A stretch of 48,834 nucleotides of DNA. Origin: Marinobacterium iners DSM 11526. GTDB taxonomy: Bacteria; Pseudomonadota; Gammaproteobacteria; Pseudomonadales; Balneatricaceae. Location: contig NZ_FNRJ01000021.1 in NCBI RefSeq assembly GCF_900107855.1, forward strand, positions 1 to 48,834, given 5' to 3'. Each line of letters begins with the position of its first letter. Position 1 is the stretch's first letter. Under the pieces are notes generated by a model, which was not told the DNA's origin, made no database searches, and was given only the letters and a program-made list of their open reading frames with translations. This document shows positions 40,873 through 48,834 of this stretch, in pieces. The position numbers and the translations under genes are program-made.

Positions 40873-41454
40873 TTAATTATTGGGAAGAGGTTTCAAGTTA
40901 CTGATTATTTTAGTCAGCATTGGATGGATGTGTTCTGACTTTCCCTGAGCGGTAACAGCAAAAAAAGCTACGGAGCGTCCTGAAGGCATCATACCGGCAA
41001 AACTGAGCGCTTCGTAATCCACCCCTTCAGATCTCAAAGACAGAAGCTCTTCATAACCTACGATGTCGCCATAGGTTACTTTTTCCATTTTTCGCATGAC
41101 TTCAGGATTCATGGCACTTGCGCTCTTGCGTACAGTTGCCAAAGATTTCAGTGCAATCAAAGGTAAAAGTTCCTTTTTGATCGTGATATCAGGCACACTG
41201 ACAATATCAATACTTGTGGGTGGATAATAGTCCTCAGGTGTACTGAGTATTATCGCATGGGTATCACGGCGGCGTTGAGTTTCCCAGTTCCATTGTGGTC
41301 GCGCGGGTACAAATATTTGAAGGCCTGCTTCGGGTACATCTGTCACGGCAAAGGGGCGTTTGGCCCGCTGCTCTTCGGCCTGTGATGGCACCGCGATAAA
41401 AAAATGTATGAATAAGGTGACTAAAGCTAAAAGGTTCAGACGGTTTCTGGACAT
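40873..41454 (-). CDS. exported protein, possible PsbP/DcrB-like fold
   Basis: The 193-aa precursor has a signal peptide (SRNRLNLLALVTLFIHFFIA...SQA) and a mature domain with alternating strands that ends YEALSFAGMMPSGRSVAFFA then LTKIISNLKPL. That ending resembles the last strands and helix of PsbP/DcrB-type domains, but the match is by eye only. Start 41454 has AGGA 9 bases upstream; a longer frame is not needed. It is flanked by the small membrane protein and the lipoprotein. Confidence 0.7.
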   Translation of the reverse strand: MSRNRLNLLALVTLFIHFFIAVPSQAEEQRAKRPFAVTDVPEAGLQIFVPARPQWNWETQRRRDTHAIILSTPEDYYPPTSIDIVSVPDITIKKELLPLIALKSLATVRKSASAMNPEVMRKMEKVTYGDIVGYEELLSLRSEGVDYEALSFAGMMPSGRSVAFFAVTAQGKSEHIHPMLTKIISNLKPLPNN

Positions 41455-41518
41455 GATTAATTCTTCCTGATTATCAGTCGTTATAAAACGGAGGCGTTCA
41501 TCCTGAATAGCGGATAGT

Positions 41519-41544
41519 ACCCTACTGAGTAGCCTCAGTAGGGT
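41519..41544. other. hairpin between lipoprotein and exported protein genes
   Basis: ACCCTACTGAG and CTCAGTAGGGT form a perfect 11-bp stem with a 4-base loop. No T-run follows on either strand, so a processing or stability element is as likely as a terminator. Confidence 0.5.
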
Positions 41545-41573
41545 CAATAAGTCAATATGACCGTTTTAATTTT

Positions 41574-42521
41574 TCAATCCAAAGGTTCGATTCGCAAGCT
41601 GCCTTCCGGCTTTAATGTCAGCTTCGCTTTGCGCCAACCCAGCCCATCTTCAGACATCTGATTATGTAACTTGAGCAGTGCATTTTCTGAAGCGGTGCTG
41701 TCAGGTAGCATAAATCTATGAGCAGTATCATTAATAATATAGTCACTGACCATTGATACTTTGTTTTCGGCTATTTCAGCCGTAACAACAACGGCTTGCC
41801 ATCCCACTGGAAGTTTACCGTCTAGTTCTGAAGAAATGAACTTACGAACTTCCGAGTCGCTAAACGTGACAGGGGCCAATAATTTTTCAGGCATTTCATC
41901 AACCCGGATAACCGCAGTATAGGTGTCTGGAGACTGCTTGTTGGCGGGGTCTATTATATCGAGCATCGGAATATTAAAGGTGACAGTTTTGCCGTTATTG
42001 GACAAAGAACCGTTGGTATCCTTTACCTGTTCGCCAGTGAAGGCGATATGAAAACCCTCACTACCAACTTCTTCTTTAAGACTTTTGATCATGGCCTGTT
42101 GCATTTCAGCAGGCATATCTGGTGGGAACATGTCCTCATTGAACTCGGAAATGAAAGTGTTGACGTCAAGTGTGAGTTTGATAACACCTTTATCTTCGGT
42201 TTCTACATCAATCGGCATAGGTTTGGATTTTTCTGTACTGCCGATATCGATAAAACTGACTTTGCCCTCTTGCAACCATGTGTCAATTGAAAATTGAGTG
42301 ACGTGATGGCAAACAGTGCTTCCGTCTGCATGAGAAGTGAGTGAACCGCCCTGTTGCTCACAATTTTTATTTGGGTTGGGGCCTGGCTTTCCTGTATCAG
42401 CACCCTGCAGAGTACGAATGTCGAGTTGTTCCGATTTCAGATCGAAATCCAGGCTGACATCAATGCAGCCGCTTAGTGCAAGTGCACAAACGAGAGAAAG
42501 GAGTAACTTAGGCATTTTCAT
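41574..42521 (-). CDS. lipoprotein of unknown function
   Basis: The 315-aa precursor has a lipobox LALSGC at about residue 19, so it is anchored in the outer or inner membrane. The mature part has three further Cys (two near NKNCEQQGG and VCHHV) that could form disulfides. The C-terminal 75 residues (GWQAVVVTAEIAENKVSMV onward, ending LRIEPLD) are clearly homologous to the broken gene at 45.2-45.7 kb. The ATG at 42521 has AGGA 7 bases upstream. The family is not recognised. Confidence 0.75.
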   Translation of the reverse strand: MKMPKLLLSLVCALALSGCIDVSLDFDLKSEQLDIRTLQGADTGKPGPNPNKNCEQQGGSLTSHADGSTVCHHVTQFSIDTWLQEGKVSFIDIGSTEKSKPMPIDVETEDKGVIKLTLDVNTFISEFNEDMFPPDMPAEMQQAMIKSLKEEVGSEGFHIAFTGEQVKDTNGSLSNNGKTVTFNIPMLDIIDPANKQSPDTYTAVIRVDEMPEKLLAPVTFSDSEVRKFISSELDGKLPVGWQAVVVTAEIAENKVSMVSDYIINDTAHRFMLPDSTASENALLKLHNQMSEDGLGWRKAKLTLKPEGSLRIEPLD

Positions 42522-42527
42522 GTACAC

Positions 42528-42818: not shown

Positions 42819-43427
42819 TTAATCCTGTCTCAATGAATAAAATATCTTATCTTCGCTACACGAATACTCATAACCTCGACTGAAAATATTTATATAGTGC
42901 TCCATATTAAATTCAATATTACAGATATCATTCAGTACGTACCAGTTTATATTGTAATCATAGTGAATATGATAAACTGCTTCATTTATAGAGTAGTATA
43001 TCTTTTCTTTATATTTTAAGTTATCTATAAATATATCGTTTAAACATACATTAATTTCGCTATGCAGCGAATCTTGCCTCTTTATCTTTAAGAGCTGATC
43101 TTGATTGCAAAATTCAACTTCCTTTATATTTTTAATTTCATTGGCCAGTTCAATAAAATTATTTTCTCTCAATATTTTTATTTTTTCTTTTATATCAAAA
43201 AATATTTCTTCTTTAATGATTTTATCTGGGAGAGGGATCTTTTCTGAAAATAATTTGACCTCAATAAGTCTTGATTTTGTTCTATCACTTAAATTCATTT
43301 TTTCAAGTATTAAATCATAATCATGCTCTGTTAAATCCACTTCGAATAAATAATCGAAGTGGTTCATGTCATAGTTCTTTTTAGTATCCCTAAAAAGAAC
43401 CCACTCTTTAACAATATTACGAATCAT
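42819..43427 (-). CDS. hypothetical protein, immunity-island member
   Basis: This 202-aa soluble protein is rich in Ile, Asn, Asp, Glu and Lys and encoded by very AT-rich DNA, unlike the core genes. It has a charged helical middle (KEEIFFDIKEKIKILREN) and an aromatic C-terminus (INWYVLNDICNIEFNMEHY). I do not recognise a family. Its composition and place beside immunity genes suggest horizontal origin and possibly an immunity role. Confidence 0.65.
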   Translation of the reverse strand: MIRNIVKEWVLFRDTKKNYDMNHFDYLFEVDLTEHDYDLILEKMNLSDRTKSRLIEVKLFSEKIPLPDKIIKEEIFFDIKEKIKILRENNFIELANEIKNIKEVEFCNQDQLLKIKRQDSLHSEINVCLNDIFIDNLKYKEKIYYSINEAVYHIHYDYNINWYVLNDICNIEFNMEHYINIFSRGYEYSCSEDKIFYSLRQD

Positions 43428-43528: not shown

Positions 43529-43870
43529 TTAAAATAAATCGGAAGAGATGGGTCCATGACATATCATTGCTGTTGATACATCTGACTCCATCCAGATCCA
43601 GTCATTCCAGTTTTCAATCAGCCAACCTACAGTAATACTCCTTTCAGGGTGAAGTGATGTAGCTGGAATTAGACGGAAAGGGTTTATACCACCCTTACTA
43701 CCAGAAATTCTTACAATAGAAATTGGAAAATCGTTATCTCCAATCCATTCACAAATCATGAATATAACTACTTCATCACACCATGAATCATCTTTCAACT
43801 TTATTAGAGAGCCTCTTCTTATGCTTTTTTCTATCGGCTCATGAAGTAGTCTTTTCCAGTCAAGTTTCAT
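43529..43870 (-). CDS. Imm45 family immunity protein
   Basis: The 113-aa protein has the pattern I associate with Imm45: IRRGSLIKL near residue 17, DEVVIFMICEWIGD, a central GSKGGINPFRLIP and the end ITVGWLIENWNDWIWMESDV. Such proteins neutralise polymorphic toxins in the cytoplasm. AGAAGG lies 7 bases before the ATG. The cognate toxin is not in the window. Confidence 0.7.
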   Translation of the reverse strand: MKLDWKRLLHEPIEKSIRRGSLIKLKDDSWCDEVVIFMICEWIGDNDFPISIVRISGSKGGINPFRLIPATSLHPERSITVGWLIENWNDWIWMESDVSTAMICHGPISSDLF

Positions 43871-43927: not shown

Positions 43928-44182
43928 TTAAGATCTTTTTATACTAACACCATCAGCTTCTTGGAATAGTTGAAATACCTTTTTTGCATAATCTCCAAGT
44001 GAGTCTTCAACTAAATCAAAATCCTTCCACTCCACTTCAACAGGCAGATCAATCCAGCCTGTGAGACAGTCCCAAAGAGCATCCAAATTCTCACCATAAT
44101 AGATTGGAAGCTCAAGTTTTTCTTTTATTTCTATATATAAATCATATTCTGAAAGCATATTTGAACCCTCTAATACAAACAA
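43928..44182 (-). CDS. barstar family ribonuclease inhibitor
   Basis: The 84-aa protein is close to barstar: ELPIYYGENLDALWDCLTGW carries the barnase-contact helix (Tyr/Asn/Leu/Trp) and EVEWKDFD follows, with length near the family's 89. The TTG at 44182 was chosen over the ATG at 44158 because FVLEGSNMLSEYDLY aligns with barstar strand 1, and GAGG lies 5 bases upstream, next to the stop of the chimeric frame. No barnase-type RNase is encoded nearby, so it is an orphan. Confidence 0.85.
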   Translation of the reverse strand: MFVLEGSNMLSEYDLYIEIKEKLELPIYYGENLDALWDCLTGWIDLPVEVEWKDFDLVEDSLGDYAKKVFQLFQEADGVSIKRS

Positions 44183-44189
44183 TTAAACC

Positions 44190-44462
44190 TCACTTTATTT
44201 TAATAAATGCCTCATAATGGTCTTTTTTATAGGAGGCCAACTGATGAATAGATGAATCTTCCAATTCAATTACTGGAGTTGGTTGAAGCTCATTCTTAGG
44301 GTGACTGTAAACCCGTACCTGCTGGTTACCATTGTACTCTTCGATTATAGGCTTAACTGCAATGTTTTCTGCGCTTTCGGTCAGCCATTGAATACTGGCA
44401 GAGGTGTCCAGGTCAGTGAAAAATCGATTGGGTCTCCTTGACGTAGAGCCCGGCTGATTCAA
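44190..44462 (-). pseudogene. chimeric remnant: PoNi N-terminus joined to an Imm11 fragment
   Basis: The open frame reads RRPNRFFTDLDTSASIQWLT to NGNQQVRVYS, matching residues 2 to about 50 of the PoNi gene at 46.5-47.9 kb, then switches to NELQPTPVIELED, matching residues 52-65 of the Imm11-type protein at 45.7 kb, and ends in 20 unrelated residues. The junction falls at about 44303-44312, in a short stretch (CTGTAAA) shared by both parents. The original ATG was lost by a 10-bp deletion relative to the copy at 48.48 kb, leaving only a TTG inside the former leader. It is probably not functional. Confidence 0.75.
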
Positions 44463-44781
44463 TGTGTTTATATACTTCTCATTTCATTAACGGGGGTATA
44501 CTTTATCCCTGTCATACCTGAATTTTTCATTTTTTCTACAATATCTGAGCGCAGCATTAAAGGTCTGAATCCTCCGTTTAGATGCACATAAAACATCTTT
44601 TGATTTTCCGGTATCTCATCATTCAATAGTACATAGTGCTCGATTGATCCTATTTGCAACTTTCCACTAGTGTCTGTCTCAATCGTAAAAAGAGAGTTTT
44701 CCTCATCAAATACTGGCAGCATATCTCTGGGGCACAGCAAGTAATAGGACTCCGGATAGGGTTCGCCTTTAATCGTCACCG
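44381..44781 (-). repeat. direct repeat, copy 1 (Imm11 3' part plus PoNi 5' start)
   Basis: This segment matches 48420-48830 in the same orientation. Over the Imm11-coding 300 bp I count about a dozen base differences by eye, plus the 10-bp deletion described for the chimeric remnant. It spans the end of one Imm11-type gene, the intergenic leader and the first codons of a PoNi-type gene. Confidence 0.85.
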
Positions 44782-45121
44782 CTGCCTCTGTAAAGTAGGC
44801 TTCAACGGCGGCCTCTTCGAACAACGCCCTGAGGCGGAAAGACACAAAAAAAGAAATTCCCACTTTAAACAGATCGAGCAAACGCCCCTCAGGCAGGGTA
44901 TAGTGCTCATCAAACCAGGCTCCCTCCCCTTGGTAGTTTTCAATCTGAATGACAGGCAGGGTTGATGTCGGCAGCAGGTTCGGGTCCTGATAAAAGCGAA
45001 GAGAAGCAAGCCTTACCCACTCCCATACCGACCTTTCATCTCCTAAAAACCATTCCCTTGTCGATTCGGTATAGGTGAGGTTATGCCGTGACGATATTTG
45101 CGTAATTTGTAAGTAGTCCAC
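44468..45121 (-). CDS. Imm11 family immunity protein, copy 1
   Basis: This 217-aa protein shows LPEGRLLDLFKVG, a central CPRDMLPVFDEE and the family-typical end FRPLMLRSDIVEKMKNSGMTGIKYTPV, as in Imm11 (DUF1629) proteins. The GTG at 45121 has AGGAGG 7 bases upstream and aligns with the start of copy 2, so it is preferred over an ATG 7 codons earlier. It differs clearly from copy 2 (45.7 kb) but is nearly the same as copy 3 at the right edge. Confidence 0.75.
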   Translation of the reverse strand: MDYLQITQISSRHNLTYTESTREWFLGDERSVWEWVRLASLRFYQDPNLLPTSTLPVIQIENYQGEGAWFDEHYTLPEGRLLDLFKVGISFFVSFRLRALFEEAAVEAYFTEAAVTIKGEPYPESYYLLCPRDMLPVFDEENSLFTIETDTSGKLQIGSIEHYVLLNDEIPENQKMFYVHLNGGFRPLMLRSDIVEKMKNSGMTGIKYTPVNEMRSI

Positions 45122-45221
45122 TTTGACTCCTCCTATTGCCATATTTGGGGTTCACAACCAGCGCTGGTGTCAGAATAACTGCCGCGATGGATGAGCGACG
45201 CTTGTCGCGTGGCGTGTCGGC

Positions 45222-45720
45222 TTATTCCAGAGGCTCTACCTTGACTCCGCCCTGTGATTTGAATGTGAGCCTTGCCTTGCGCCAGGTATGTCCATTCTTG
45301 GCCATCAGGCGTTGCAACTTGATCAGCGCGTTCATGGGACCGATGTTGTTGGATGGGGTGAAGCGCTGTGGGGCGCCATCCGTGATGTAATGACTGATCA
45401 TGCTGACGGCTCGCTTGCCGTCCTCTTCGAACAGTTCGGCAACGACGATCAGTTCCTTCCAGTTCGAGGGGTGTAGCCTGGCTTGTTGACGTCGTTCTTC
45501 GTCTTCGCGCTTGTACTTGTCGTAGAGTTCCTGGCCGATGGATTCGATGGTCTCTTTTTCATATTCTTCATCGAGCTCGGGTTTGTAGGCGAAGTCGATA
45601 CTGTGGGTGCCGTCGCGGGAGACTTCGATGGTGCAAAGGTTCCAGTAGTCAGGACTATTTTCATTATTAATAACTAGTTTTCTTGCTACCTTCTGGATAA
45701 ATCACATCGATAAACTCGGG
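45222..45720 (-). pseudogene. broken gene with a C-terminus homologous to the 41.6-kb lipoprotein
   Basis: In one frame, 45222-45701 is open for 159 codons with no start codon at its 5' end. It reads DYWNLCTIEVSRDGTHSIDF, KPELDEEYEKE and a C-terminal part NWKELIVVAEL ... AVSMISHYITD ... TWRKARLTFKSQGGVKVEPLE, which aligns with the lipoprotein's last 75 residues (VSMVSDYIIND, GWRKAKLTLKPEGSLRIEPLD). Upstream, a second frame gives KPEFIDVIYPEGSKK and would join smoothly if one A were removed from the AAAA run at about 45675-45681. So it is a frameshifted, 5'-truncated gene abutting Imm11 copy 2. GC content is higher than in the AT-rich immunity genes. Confidence 0.7.
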
Positions 45721-45722
45721 CT

Positions 45723-46382
45723 TCAGAACGGGCGTTTCATCTCGTTAACTGGGGTAAATTTCATCCCCGTGATGCCTGCAGACCGAATCTGTTCCACAAT
45801 ATCAGAGCGCAGCATGAGGGGACGATATCCACCATTAATATGTAGATAAAACAACTTCTGTTCTGCTGGGATTTCATCAGTTTTCAGGACAAACGTATCA
45901 ATCCTTCCAACAGATGATTCCCCAGAGGTGTCGTAACACGTCATAAATACAGATTGCTCCTCATCAAATACCGGCAACATATCTCGCGGAGCGACAAGGA
46001 AAAATGGCTCCAGATACTGCTCTTCCTCAATGGTGACAGACGCTTCTGTGAAAAAGGCTTCTGCTTCGTTCTCCTCCAGTAACTGCTTTAATCGAGACGA
46101 CACAAAATTTCTAAGTCCCAGGGAAAAATAGTCTAGAAGCCGTCCTTCAGGCAGACTGTAAGCCCTGTTAAAACGGGCATCGTCACCTCTGTAATCTTCC
46201 AGCTCAATTATAGGAATTGGTTGAAGCTCACACTCAGGGTGATTGTAAAATCGTCGTCCTGCCAGCCCGGTCCAGACATTAGCGGCATTTCCGGGTGCCG
46301 TTTTTAGAAACCATTTGCGGGTGCTCGCGGTGTAGGTAATACAGTGGCTTGAGATTAATTCGCTGATTTCGAAATATTCCAT
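45723..46382 (-). CDS. Imm11 family immunity protein, copy 2
   Basis: The 219-aa protein is a diverged paralogue of the copy at 44.5 kb: MEYFEISELISSHCITYTAS, LPEGRLLDYFSLGLRNFVSS, APRDMLPVFDEEQS and the end RPLMLRSDIVEQIRSAGITGM. It keeps the full family length. Its residues 52-65 (ECELQPIPIIELED) are the donor type for the chimeric remnant at 44.2 kb. Confidence 0.75.
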   Translation of the reverse strand: MEYFEISELISSHCITYTASTRKWFLKTAPGNAANVWTGLAGRRFYNHPECELQPIPIIELEDYRGDDARFNRAYSLPEGRLLDYFSLGLRNFVSSRLKQLLEENEAEAFFTEASVTIEEEQYLEPFFLVAPRDMLPVFDEEQSVFMTCYDTSGESSVGRIDTFVLKTDEIPAEQKLFYLHINGGYRPLMLRSDIVEQIRSAGITGMKFTPVNEMKRPF

Positions 46383-46564
46383 ATAGTGCTCTGTAAGTAC
46401 TTATAAAATGGTTTACTGCCCGATCTGCTCTCGTATTACGCGTACCGGCAAGTCCATGCCTCTGATCAGCTTGTCGTGATGAATGGGCCTATTGGTGTCG
46501 CTCTTCGCAGCGGTCGCTCACCGGTTGCAGGTTGTCGTCTACCAGTAAAAGCCATACAGCGGCA
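46383..46564 (-). other. spacer with short protein-like fragments
   Basis: There is no complete gene. On the minus strand two short frames read AVWLLLVDDNLQPVSDRCEE and, after a shift, HHDKLIRGMDLPVRVIREQI before a stop near 46430. They look like the tail of a decayed reading frame, possibly part of a former toxin or immunity gene. This is a weak impression only. Confidence 0.3.
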
Positions 46565-47932
46565 TTAAAACGGCTGATCATCGGCAAAGGTTCGGAGCGT
46601 CAGTCCCGCCCGTTCCAGTTGGATGACCCACTCATCCGCCTGCTCTTGGCGTACTGCCAGCGCGTAATAGCTGTCGTCGCCGGTATCTGGAGAGATCAGC
46701 CGGAAGCCCCGTTCGTTGAGCCATAGGTGGAAGCGGTACAGCACCTCCCAGACCCGGTGGGAACTGCTGAAGCTTAGCGGGTCCGGCTCGAACGCCTCTT
46801 CGATCGCCAGAGTACGGGCCAGATCGGCACAGAACGACAATGCGCTTTCGTCATCCTTCCAGTCTACATGCAGCAGTACCAGGCGACGATAGGTCTGCAG
46901 CAGTTCCATCTCCCACTGGGCCGTCGACAGGGCACAGAGAAGATCGGCGACATCGAACTGCTCCTCTTCCCACTCGTCGTTCAGCCACTGAACCAGAGCA
47001 TTCCACAGAGTGGCCTGCAGGCTTTTGGGCAAAGTGGCTGCCATCCGTTCGAACAGCGGCTGCCAGGGGGCAAGCAGCTCGGGCGCGGGCTTGCGCTTGG
47101 GCGAACGCTTGGGTGGCTCCGGCAAGGCCGGCTCTTGCAGTGGCTGCAGGATGACCGGCTCGCCCCGGTATTGGGCGCAGGCCTGCATCAGATCGGTGGG
47201 ATAGAACTCATGGTCGATGAAGCTGCTGTCATCGATATTCAGCGCGGCAACCACGGCGGCGGCGGGGTAACACCAATAGCCTTTCCATTCGCCTTGAAGG
47301 CGTTCTATTACAGGGTAGCGTTGTCTCGGTATTTTATTTTTCAGCAGCAGTTTTTCCCACTGATCCAGGTAGCGGGCGATCATGCCGGGGCGCTTGTCCG
47401 GTGGCGCATCGAACACCGCATAGAGGCTTTTGTAGACGGGTTTGTGATTTATATCATCAGCTAATGGGCGTGTGGGGTCATATATGCTCAGGAGACGGTC
47501 GATAAAGAGATCATAGCCAGCTGACATGGCGCGGGTGTTACGTCCGATCTCATCCCGGCTTTCACCCAGAGCATGGCCAAAGGCGAGGAGGATGCCGACC
47601 TCAATCGGATTGATAATGTCCATTCTGGCCTTTTCCATCCCGCAGGTATGGATACTCTTCTCTAGAAGACGCAACCGCTCACGGGTTTGCAGATAGACAG
47701 GACGCATGGAATCGATGCTGTCGCCACGCAGGTAGAGTGCTCGTAGAAGATCCAAGGAGTGGCCACATGAGTATTGATAACTGTAAACCCGTACCTGCTG
47801 GTTACCATTGCACTCTTCGATATATTTCAAAATATAGGCTTCACTGCACTCTTCTTCTGAGTTATCAATTAACCACTGAACACTATATGACGTATCGATA
47901 TCAAGGTCGCTAAAAAATCGGTTGGGCCTCAT
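46565..47932 (-). CDS. PoNi-type immunity protein with a C-terminal DUF6630-like domain
   Basis: The 455-aa protein has an N-terminal DUF1910/DUF1911 (PoNi) part: YSCGHSLDLLRALYLRG, PVYKSLYAVFDAPPDKRPGM, EWKGYWCYPAAAVVAALNID and DDSSFIDHEFYPTDLM, to about residue 265. PoNi proteins inactivate PoNe DNase toxins. A Pro/Lys-rich linker (LPEPPKRSPKRKP, about 280) leads to a second domain of about 165 aa, with LLHVDWKDDESAL and DTGDDSYYALAVR, that resembles DUF6630. The usual PoNi is about 250-300 aa, so this is a fusion. GGAG lies 6 bases before the ATG. The 3' two-thirds is GC-richer than the 5' end. Confidence 0.78.
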   Translation of the reverse strand: MRPNRFFSDLDIDTSYSVQWLIDNSEEECSEAYILKYIEECNGNQQVRVYSYQYSCGHSLDLLRALYLRGDSIDSMRPVYLQTRERLRLLEKSIHTCGMEKARMDIINPIEVGILLAFGHALGESRDEIGRNTRAMSAGYDLFIDRLLSIYDPTRPLADDINHKPVYKSLYAVFDAPPDKRPGMIARYLDQWEKLLLKNKIPRQRYPVIERLQGEWKGYWCYPAAAVVAALNIDDSSFIDHEFYPTDLMQACAQYRGEPVILQPLQEPALPEPPKRSPKRKPAPELLAPWQPLFERMAATLPKSLQATLWNALVQWLNDEWEEEQFDVADLLCALSTAQWEMELLQTYRRLVLLHVDWKDDESALSFCADLARTLAIEEAFEPDPLSFSSSHRVWEVLYRFHLWLNERGFRLISPDTGDDSYYALAVRQEQADEWVIQLERAGLTLRTFADDQPF

Positions 47933-48054
47933 CTATCTCTCCTTTTGGTAAAACTGATATTCGGAGCCGGTGCGGTCTAATTTTACCTTCGATGTGGAGC
48001 CTGACTGCTCATGAGTCTCATAGAATTTTGTATTACGGATTGCATAGAGATTCG

Positions 48055-48351
48055 TTAATCTCCAGAAAAACGCACAGTTTCAACATTTTTGTTCTTTAAA
48101 TAATCAATAAGTATGATCAGTTCATATTTAAATTCTATTCTTCCATGCTCTTTAAATTTTTCAAACTCGGCTATTAAATTTGCAAGAGAAGCTCCATAGA
48201 AAGTTTCATCAGCTAAGTAGTAATCCTTTATTTTTCTCAGTTGTTTATAATTTTTATAATCATCATATGAAAAAATACTTTTATGAAGCGTCTCAGACAT
48301 AGAGATGATCTTATTTTCTTTTTCTGTATATATCAAAATATCTAATGACAT
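48055..48351 (-). CDS. small hypothetical protein, immunity-island member
   Basis: The 98-aa soluble protein (SLDILIYTEKENKIISMSE at the start, IEFKYELIILIDYLKNK near the end) is encoded by very AT-rich DNA. AGAAGAG lies about 9 bases before its ATG, inside the end of the stub frame upstream. Size and place suit a small immunity protein, but I recognise no family. Confidence 0.65.
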   Translation of the reverse strand: MSLDILIYTEKENKIISMSETLHKSIFSYDDYKNYKQLRKIKDYYLADETFYGASLANLIAEFEKFKEHGRIEFKYELIILIDYLKNKNVETVRFSGD

Positions 48352-48357
48352 GACTAT

Positions 48358-48477
48358 TCAAACTCTTCTAATATCTTTTATGAAGTAGTCTTCGCCACAT
48401 CTACTCTGCGACACTTCAGTCAGCCATTGAATACTGGCAGAGGTGTACAGATCAGTAAAAAATCGATTAGGTCTCAT
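48358..48477 (-). pseudogene. PoNi N-terminal stub (39 codons)
   Basis: The frame starts ATG at 48477, reads RPNRFFTDLYTSASIQWLTE and stops after about 39 residues, matching only the N-terminus of the PoNi-type gene. It keeps the ATG that the copy at 44.46 kb has lost. It ends 6 bp before the 98-aa gene. It may be a decayed gene, or now serve only as a translated leader for the gene after it. Confidence 0.6.
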
Positions 48478-48830
48478 TGGTTTTCCTTGACGTAGAGCCC
48501 GGCTGATTCAATGCGGCTATATACTTCTCATTTCATCAACGGGGGTATACTTTATCCCTGTCATTCCTGAAATTTTCATTTTTTCTACAATATCTGAGCG
48601 CAGCATTAAAGGTCTGAATCCTCCGTTTAGATGCACATAAAACATCTTTTGATTTTCCGGTATTTCATTATTCAATAGTACATAGTGTTCGACTGATCCT
48701 ATTTGCAACTTTCCACTAGTGTCTGTCTCAATCGTAAACAGAGAGTTTTCCTCATCAAATACCGGCAACATATCTCTGGGGCACAGCAAGTAATAGGGCT
48801 CCGGATAGGGTTCGCCTTTAATCGTCACCG
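48420..48830 (-). repeat. direct repeat, copy 2
   Basis: Second copy of the segment at 44381-44781, same orientation, about 4 kb away. The match runs to the window edge, so the true repeat is longer. It still contains the 10 bp (around 48477) missing from copy 1. Confidence 0.85.
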
Positions 48831-48834
48831 CCAC
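48517..48834 (-). CDS. Imm11 family immunity protein, copy 3 (partial, 5' end outside window)
   Basis: The last 105 codons of an Imm11-type gene are present: TIKGEPYPEPYYLLCPRDML to the end GMTGIKYTPVDEMRSI. Protein identity to copy 1 over this part is very high, with a handful of substitutions. The frame stays open to the window end, so the start lies beyond base 48834. Confidence 0.75.
   Translation of the reverse strand: MAVTIKGEPYPEPYYLLCPRDMLPVFDEENSLFTIETDTSGKLQIGSVEHYVLLNNEIPENQKMFYVHLNGGFRPLMLRSDIVEKMKISGMTGIKYTPVDEMRSI

Follow-up and report, generated by a model that had tools for sequence, protein, structure and literature searches.

How an array of immunity genes came to hold the same piece of DNA twice is the question raised by the right end of contig NZ_FNRJ01000021.1 of Marinobacterium iners DSM 11526. 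The window analysed here is this entire contig (contig C33 of genome G000, 48,834 nt), and the array, all the genes of which lie on the minus strand, carries near its right edge two copies of a unit made of parts of an Imm11 and a PoNi immunity gene. A first-pass annotation took the two copies for a recent segmental duplication framing an immunity cassette. In our view, they are likely to be two alleles of an old mobile toxin-immunity block, lying in an orphan array behind a polymorphic toxin that belongs to a Tad locus.

The direct repeat extends over positions 44376-44782 (left copy, termed A) and 48415-48831 (right copy, termed C), both read on the minus strand and in the same orientation, with starts 4039-4049 nt apart and a stretch of 3,632 nt between them. 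The copies are 93-95% identical (E = 6.9e-180 in a BLAST search within the genome) and differ by one 10-nt indel, the gap of which sits in copy A. Each copy consists of the 3' half of an Imm11 gene (Imm11 A or Imm11 C), a leader that bears the scar of a PoNe-like toxin tail, and the 5' stump of a PoNi gene, and the stumps diverge beyond about codon 20. The Imm11 coding part takes up 312 nt (104 codons including the stop), in which 12 codons differ between A and C, so that the reported repeat of about 400 bp, with about a dozen differences over some 300 coding bases, is borne out. The content given for the interval, i.e. about 3.6 kb with Imm11 B, a PoNi-DUF6630 fusion and a small open reading frame (ORF), was correct as far as it went; the 5' half of Imm11 A and a YezG-like fragment (45222-45701) lie there as well. 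Copy C is cut by the contig end, which is the right edge of the window, and the extent of the repeat there is a minimum; the matching unit in the two other genomes described below extends through a complete Imm11 gene. A contig that ends inside a repeat is typical of short-read breaks, and an artefact of assembly might be suspected for this reason. However, A and C mismatch at about 5% of the sites (20 of 407) and thus are not a single sequence that the assembler put in two places; they also differ by the indel, their neighbours differ and the contig ends show no overlap, which makes this explanation very improbable.

Whether the duplication was recent can be judged from copies of the unit in other genomes. 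When 390 genomes of the order were searched at the DNA level, two proved to carry the unit, M. iners itself and Marinobacterium marinum (G004, contig NZ_JACEMT010000051.1; copy G). A fourth copy (H), from a scan with the toxin protein outside this order-level DNA search, was found in 'Granulosicoccaceae sp. 1_MG-2023' (G536, locus L033), which belongs to another order and is kin of M. iners only at the class level. The pairwise differences are 20/407 for A-C, 17/407 for A-G and 13/407 for A-H, and 18/417, 19/417 and 16/417 for C-G, C-H and G-H, respectively; A and C are thus the most divergent of the six pairs. Furthermore, among the informative sites that split the four copies two against two, three join A with H and C with G, while none joins A with C or A with G. 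If recent unequal recombination in the M. iners lineage had doubled a segment of 4 kb and left the 400-bp repeat at its edges, the direct orientation and the common non-coding leader would be accounted for, and so would the traces of PoNi and then Imm11 B behind both copies, the matching order of which would suggest a single doubling of a larger block. Such an event is nevertheless unlikely, given the divergence of about 5% and the 10-nt indel between A and C, their position as the most divergent pair, the lack of any site that joins A and C against the copies of the other species, and the Imm11 B-like piece behind A, which is merely 82% like Imm11 B. The word 'recent' of the first-pass annotation is therefore not supported for a duplication in this genome. 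Support is found for a direct repeat that lies in an immunity array, several signs of recombination between array members being present.

A and C nonetheless appear to descend from one ancestral unit, since the non-coding leader with the same scar is found in all four copies, and the collinear similarity that was looked for outside the coding parts is therefore present; their split does not seem to be a recent one. The units in the window are about 94-97% identical in nucleotides to those of M. marinum and L033, and yet the rsmG-mnmG region of M. iners is only 79% identical to that of M. marinum, 75% to that of M. mangrovicola and 69% to that of the L033 genome, the last value being over the best-aligned 1.4 kb only; the region of the YceI and cytochrome b561 genes is 66% identical to that of M. 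marinum. The unit, i.e. Imm11, the PoNe scar and the PoNi start, is best read from these comparisons as a horizontally circulating and recombining toxin-immunity module, and the scale of the exchange is seen in a unit that is about 95% identical across orders, against 69% for the mnmG region where it could be aligned. When A, C and the M. marinum copy were compared, the sites peculiar to A or to C fell into 4 runs among 21 sites (permutation p ~0.0005), a clustering that fits patchwise imports, in which unsampled alleles may take part. The same contrast between the unit and the rsmG-mnmG region (just 69-79% identical) would be expected if the circulating unit had been acquired twice, without any duplication. 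Two separate acquisitions are a special case of the two-allele interpretation favoured above, with which they overlap in probability, and we give them somewhat less than an even chance; with four copies known, just two of them from outside, an old duplication that later underwent gene conversion or other exchange would look the same.

The leader had been described as shared by the two copies, which is the case, but it also seems to include a leftover of a PoNe-like toxin gene, from its 3' end. From the Imm11 stop to the PoNi start, the stretch is nearly identical in all four units: the sequence GAATCAGCCGGGCTCTACGTCAAGG is found in both A and C, the M. marinum and L033 units each differ from it by a single change, and by eye it resembles the 3' end of those PoNe-like toxin genes that precede other PoNi genes. 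As the same tail scar is present in the four units, a single toxin-gene deletion probably lies in their common history. Beyond about codon 20 the units enter different PoNi pieces, namely a full gene in M. marinum and differing stumps in A, C and L033. A similar scar-like stretch precedes a PoNi stump in M. mangrovicola, but behind a different gene. Exchange between array members is also visible in the ORF at 44190-44462 (minus strand), a mosaic of the PoNi 5' stump of copy A, a piece of another PoNi allele and an Imm11 B-like piece: its positions 44304-44345 match 47780-47821 at 98%, and 44255-44316 match 46193-46254 within Imm11 B at 82%. A crossover between A and C could in principle delete the cassette that lies between them; no instance of its loss or amplification was seen, although a test would require reads. 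A further direct repeat, of about 114 nt and 93% identity (226-338 and 1677-1790 of locus L023), lies inside the array on contig C44 of the same genome.

What the array trails behind can be sought on other contigs of M. iners. One end of contig C10 carries mnmE, tadB, tadC, tadD, a Flp-like pilin gene, tadG, a tadE-like gene, cpaB, a secretin gene and cpaF, together with some other ORFs. Among these, tadB and tadC (T2SSF), tadG (Tad), cpaB (RcpC), the secretin gene and cpaF (T2SSE) are supported by Pfam, and tadD, the tadE-like gene and the Flp-like pilin gene were named by eye, the last being an ORF that we take to encode a Flp-type pilin from a motif. The genome has one peptidase A24 match for a prepilin peptidase, which lies on a contig other than that of the tad operon. 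Only 28 nt past cpaF begins the gene of a 704-aa protein with a Pfam TadE match (4.9e-10) and a PT-HINT match (2.6e-12), followed by an unassigned ORF, the last before the contig end and a candidate immunity gene by position. On contig C44 (5,444 nt) are found a complete YezG-like gene, fragments of Hint and toxin sequence, pieces of a TadE-Hint gene, and PoNi. Its PoNe-like end, which still carries the last part of a Hint domain, stands with PoNi, and the window has PoNe-like tails as well; these fragments are what an orphan array of toxin C-terminal ends (CTs) and immunity genes contains. It appears that C44 and C10 adjoin the window in the order C33-C44-C10, and most likely the array trails a tad (Flp-pilus) operon, the final gene of which encodes a protein that starts like TadE, has a PT-HINT domain and finishes in an exchangeable toxin part.

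A second genome of this species, the closed genome G003, indicates how variable this region is. There the left flank of the array and mnmE are about 17 kb apart, with transposase-like genes between them, presumably of the IS66 type and others. A DNA search of G003, the only other strain of the species searched, found no array DNA beyond the left flank, the scaffold profile of the toxin had no match in this genome, and tadB to tadG were not found in the interval from the flank to mnmE, where about 0.6 kb next to tadG remains. Therefore at least 19.5 kb of C10, C44 and C33, together with tadB to tadG, is variable, and the comparison of strains that had been suggested for the cassette thus finds the whole array missing from one of them. 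In G003 the gene next to tadG is interrupted by an insertion that bears a transposase (L024:10045-12401), the flanks of which overlap by 8 nt, as expected of a target-site duplication, and additional insertions split the flank of the lost locus.

The HINT-toxin scaffold is found in other genomes too, with 11 loci in total, i.e. M. iners (L026/L046), M. mangrovicola (L027, taken to be genome G788), M. marinum (L028), L030, L031, L032, L033, L063 (G812), L064 (G760), L065 (G434) and L066 (G773). L029, a 4.5-kb contig with a Pfam TadE match and no tad genes, was left out of this count; a search of 369 genomes of the class gave 7 matches at E <= 1e-25, and G534, G694, G741 and G755, which matched mainly in the Hint part, were not counted. 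Within the family, 6 of 116 genomes carry the scaffold at E <= 1e-15. In 8 of the 11 loci (M. iners, L027, L030, L031, L032, L064, L065 and L066, the last with broken frames), cpaB, the secretin gene and cpaF lie within 10 kb of the scaffold, a linkage that is seen in several genera. By comparison, none of nine control loci with the Hint part only (L034-L042, two of them <5 kb) stands beside a tad operon. The TadE start was recognised in 8 of the 11 (by Pfam in M. iners, L027, L028, L030, L032, L064 and L065, and by tblastn in L066), and in 7 of the 8 that stand beside a tad operon. The layout is that of polymorphic toxins: the scaffold is conserved to about residue 607, variable ends follow, which are PoNe-like, AHH, RNAse_A_bac or without family assignment, and the immunity gene comes next. 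An AHH end was found in Granulosicoccus (1.4e-13) and in G812 (4.6e-9; here Imm11 is immediately next and the TadE start was not recognised), and an RNAse_A_bac end in Noviherbaspirillum (2.9e-28), where the TadE and Hint parts lie in two frames. PoNi or Imm11 directly follows the scaffold toxin in L027, L064 and G812. In M. mangrovicola the same operon ends in an open frame for a 798-aa TadE-PT-HINT protein with a PoNe-like end, then come two PoNi genes, further ORFs, a PoNi stump and a lipoprotein-like gene like that at the border of the window array. In M. marinum, Imm11 (92.7% aa identity to Imm11 B) stands behind a broken TadE-Hint gene, whose AHH matches are below the cut-off. The Hint domain has its invariant Cys, TxxH and HN, residues with a role in cleavage by such domains, in all six aligned proteins.

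These loci also bear on the possibility that the array is an ordinary polyimmunity locus which has no functional tie to the tad-linked toxin and came to its place near oriC, where the genome varies, by chance alone. Loci of this type that include Imm11 are known, as far as the covered portion of the account in PMC3482391 goes, and the stretch from mnmE to the b561 gene does vary among genomes. However, the array holds a piece of cpaF, C44 holds pieces of a TadE-Hint gene, and Imm11 or PoNi directly follows the scaffold toxins in relatives, and a chance placement therefore seems quite unlikely to us.

Several observations weigh against the interpretation of the array as the trail of a Tad-locus toxin. 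The Hint-only control loci were queried with Marinobacterium tad proteins, and distant tad genes could be missed. Three of the 11 scaffold loci are without a complete tad operon, L028 and L033 having none of the core genes and G812 only pieces of tadG; the TadE start was not recognised in L031, L033 and L063 (G812), the TadE and Hint parts of L032 are in two frames, and the scaffold genes of M. marinum and G773 are broken. The scaffold is rare, with M. iners as its sole carrier among 398 genomes of a phylum sample at E <= 1e-35. On C10 the tadE-like gene has no Pfam TadE match, the FHA match of cpaF is below the cut-off, and so is the Flp-like pilin with respect to Pfam Flp, for which the whole genome gave no match over the cut-off. 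The order C33-C44-C10 is drawn from gene content and one closed sister genome, and no overlap was found among the ends of the three contigs. The PoNe motif Kx3GExnGIDx2YxnYx3ExK is present in part: GE, GIDSI and ESK can be recognised by eye, while the spacing and some residues differ. Finally, the structure model of the full-length protein is poor, with a predicted local distance difference test score (pLDDT) of 44, and that of the N-terminal part, made from the M. mangrovicola protein, reaches a pLDDT of 67 and has no significant fold match.

The array itself holds Imm11, PoNi_C, YezG-like, Barstar and Imm45 genes side by side in one orientation, a composition known as heterogeneous polyimmunity. 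Above the Pfam cut-offs are Imm11 A, Imm11 B, PoNi_C, DUF6630, the YezG-like gene, Barstar and Imm45, so that two Imm11 genes are recognised by Pfam and a third by nucleotide identity. This third gene, Imm11 C (48517-48834), is a 3' half that is open at the contig end at 48834, with about 95% nucleotide identity to Imm11 A and a Pfam Imm11 E value of 0.083, below the cut-off. It is followed, in the direction of transcription, by the 39-aa PoNi stump of copy C (48358-48477), a small A+T-rich ORF of 98 aa without any family over the cut-off (48055-48351), and a remnant of a PoNe-like toxin gene, of which the 3' end is left (47933-48058, ending in ..STSKVKLDRTGSEYQFYQKER before the stop), with 81% identity over 75 nt to a PoNe-like tail in L033. 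Directly behind this remnant, the frame of a 455-aa immunity protein with PoNi_C and DUF6630 domains is intact (46565-47932; Pfam 2e-15 and 3.5e-14). Next come a remnant of a small array gene (46500-46564; 86% over 65 nt to an open-frame gene of M. marinum, L025:8502-8954) and a scrap from the 3' region of cpaF, the Tad ATPase gene (46421-46470; 90% over 50 nt to the cpaF on C10). Imm11 B (45723-46382; 92.7% aa identity to the Imm11 of M. marinum) and the 224-aa Imm11 A (44468-45142; Pfam 3.2e-7) both have intact frames, and between them the YezG-like gene (45222-45701) lacks an internal segment as well as its N-terminal part; C44 and L033 carry copies of full length. Beyond the mosaic ORF lie a Barstar-family gene (43928-44182; 2.4e-21), Imm45 (43529-43870; 3.3e-6) and an A+T-rich ORF of 202 aa (42819-43427), a candidate immunity gene by position only, with a homologue of 75% aa identity in the L033 array. 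The ORFs at 42819-43427 and 48055-48351 have a GC content of 26%, compared with 43% for the array overall and 55% for PoNi, and apparently are foreign genes.

The far end of the locus is formed by two further genes on the same strand. The one at 41574-42527 encodes a lipoprotein-like product, so called by eye, and a homologue stands behind the immunity genes in M. mangrovicola. This protein, which may be a periplasmic immunity protein, shares 40% identity over its last 100 aa with the end of the YezG-like immunity protein on C44. The other gene (40873-41547), which belongs to no family, encodes a putative secreted accessory protein, its secretion being judged by eye. It has homologues near the scaffold genes of M. 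mangrovicola, Cocleimonas, G812, G760, G434 and G773, with two or three matches each in the last three, some of them weak, and may be an accessory or immunity gene of the scaffold-toxin system.

From its gene content, the following working of the locus can be proposed. The tad operon would make a Flp-type pilus or pseudopilus, and its last gene would encode a TadE-type minor pilin with a PT-HINT domain and an exchangeable nuclease-like end. The Hint domain would cleave the protein and free the toxin end, which would act on neighbouring cells; delivery through the Tad apparatus is suggested because the toxin has a TadE start and its gene lies in the tad operon. Recombination would swap the toxin end and push the previous end with its immunity gene downstream, a displacement supposed here by analogy with the published model for cdiA-CT/cdiI (PMC4927057, the covered portion). 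Old toxins would then decay, and the orphan immunity genes would be retained, probably as protection against relatives that still use those toxins, while the array members go on recombining and moving between species. The window would be the far end of this record of exchange, where toxins are down to tails and several immunity frames are intact. That Tad pili or pseudopili deliver polymorphic toxins on minor-pilin ends released by HINT, with the array as both the fossil and the shield of past exchanges, has in our judgement about an even chance of being right. If so, this would be a class of toxin carrier outside the descriptions we found, and a toxin on a pilus-type subunit may point to a new way of poisoning neighbouring bacteria.

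Polymorphic toxins, HINT domains, orphan immunity arrays and Tad pili are each known. Their union in one gene and locus was not found described, and no account of a TadE-HINT toxin with a tad operon was found in the open-licence literature, which was covered in part; the likenesses that follow likewise concern the covered portions of the articles cited. The closest are the orphan cdiA-CT/cdiI and rhs-CT/rhsI arrays (PMC4927057), in which, as in the window, displaced ends and immunity genes all point the same way behind a polymorphic toxin and include stretches homologous to its active gene. Unlike in these arrays of contact-dependent growth inhibition (CDI) and Rhs systems, the carrier here is a TadE-HINT protein in a tad operon rather than CdiA or Rhs, and most toxin ends have been lost, so that immunity genes are dominant. 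The behaviour known of orphan arrays behind CDI and Rhs toxins thus seems to recur behind a TadE-HINT toxin. Heterogeneous polyimmunity loci (PMC3482391), a source that also lists Imm11 against Tox-AHH, share with the window adjoining unrelated families including Imm11, the single orientation and the variation among strains; unlike them, the window array most likely lies behind a tad-linked toxin and contains scraps of toxin and cpaF, and TadE and the pilus are not mentioned in the portion of that account covered. The PoNe/PoNi pairs (PMC6688995) are alike in that a PD-(D/E)xK-like toxin end is followed by a PoNi gene, but type V, VI and VII carriers and a Sec signal are named there, whereas the carrier here is of the TadE-HINT type and the motif is present in part. 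With regard to delivery, the Kil system of Myxococcus xanthus (PMC8460266, PMC12075869, PMC10433427) is a Tad apparatus that has minor pilins of the TadE/F/G type and works on contact with other bacteria. One minor-pilin tip of Kil is believed to carry or bind a toxin (PMC12075869), and the toxic effectors were called unknown in a 2023 review (PMC10433427). Kil has essential FHA proteins, whereas the FHA match of the M. iners cpaF is the one below the cut-off mentioned above. Unlike in Kil, the candidate toxin here belongs to a TadE-type protein that brings a HINT domain and has immunity genes of its own; it would be a candidate for the cargo of a killing Tad apparatus, and the question of Tad effectors would become directly testable in a marine bacterium with a tad locus that has an exchangeable toxin and immunity genes to itself.

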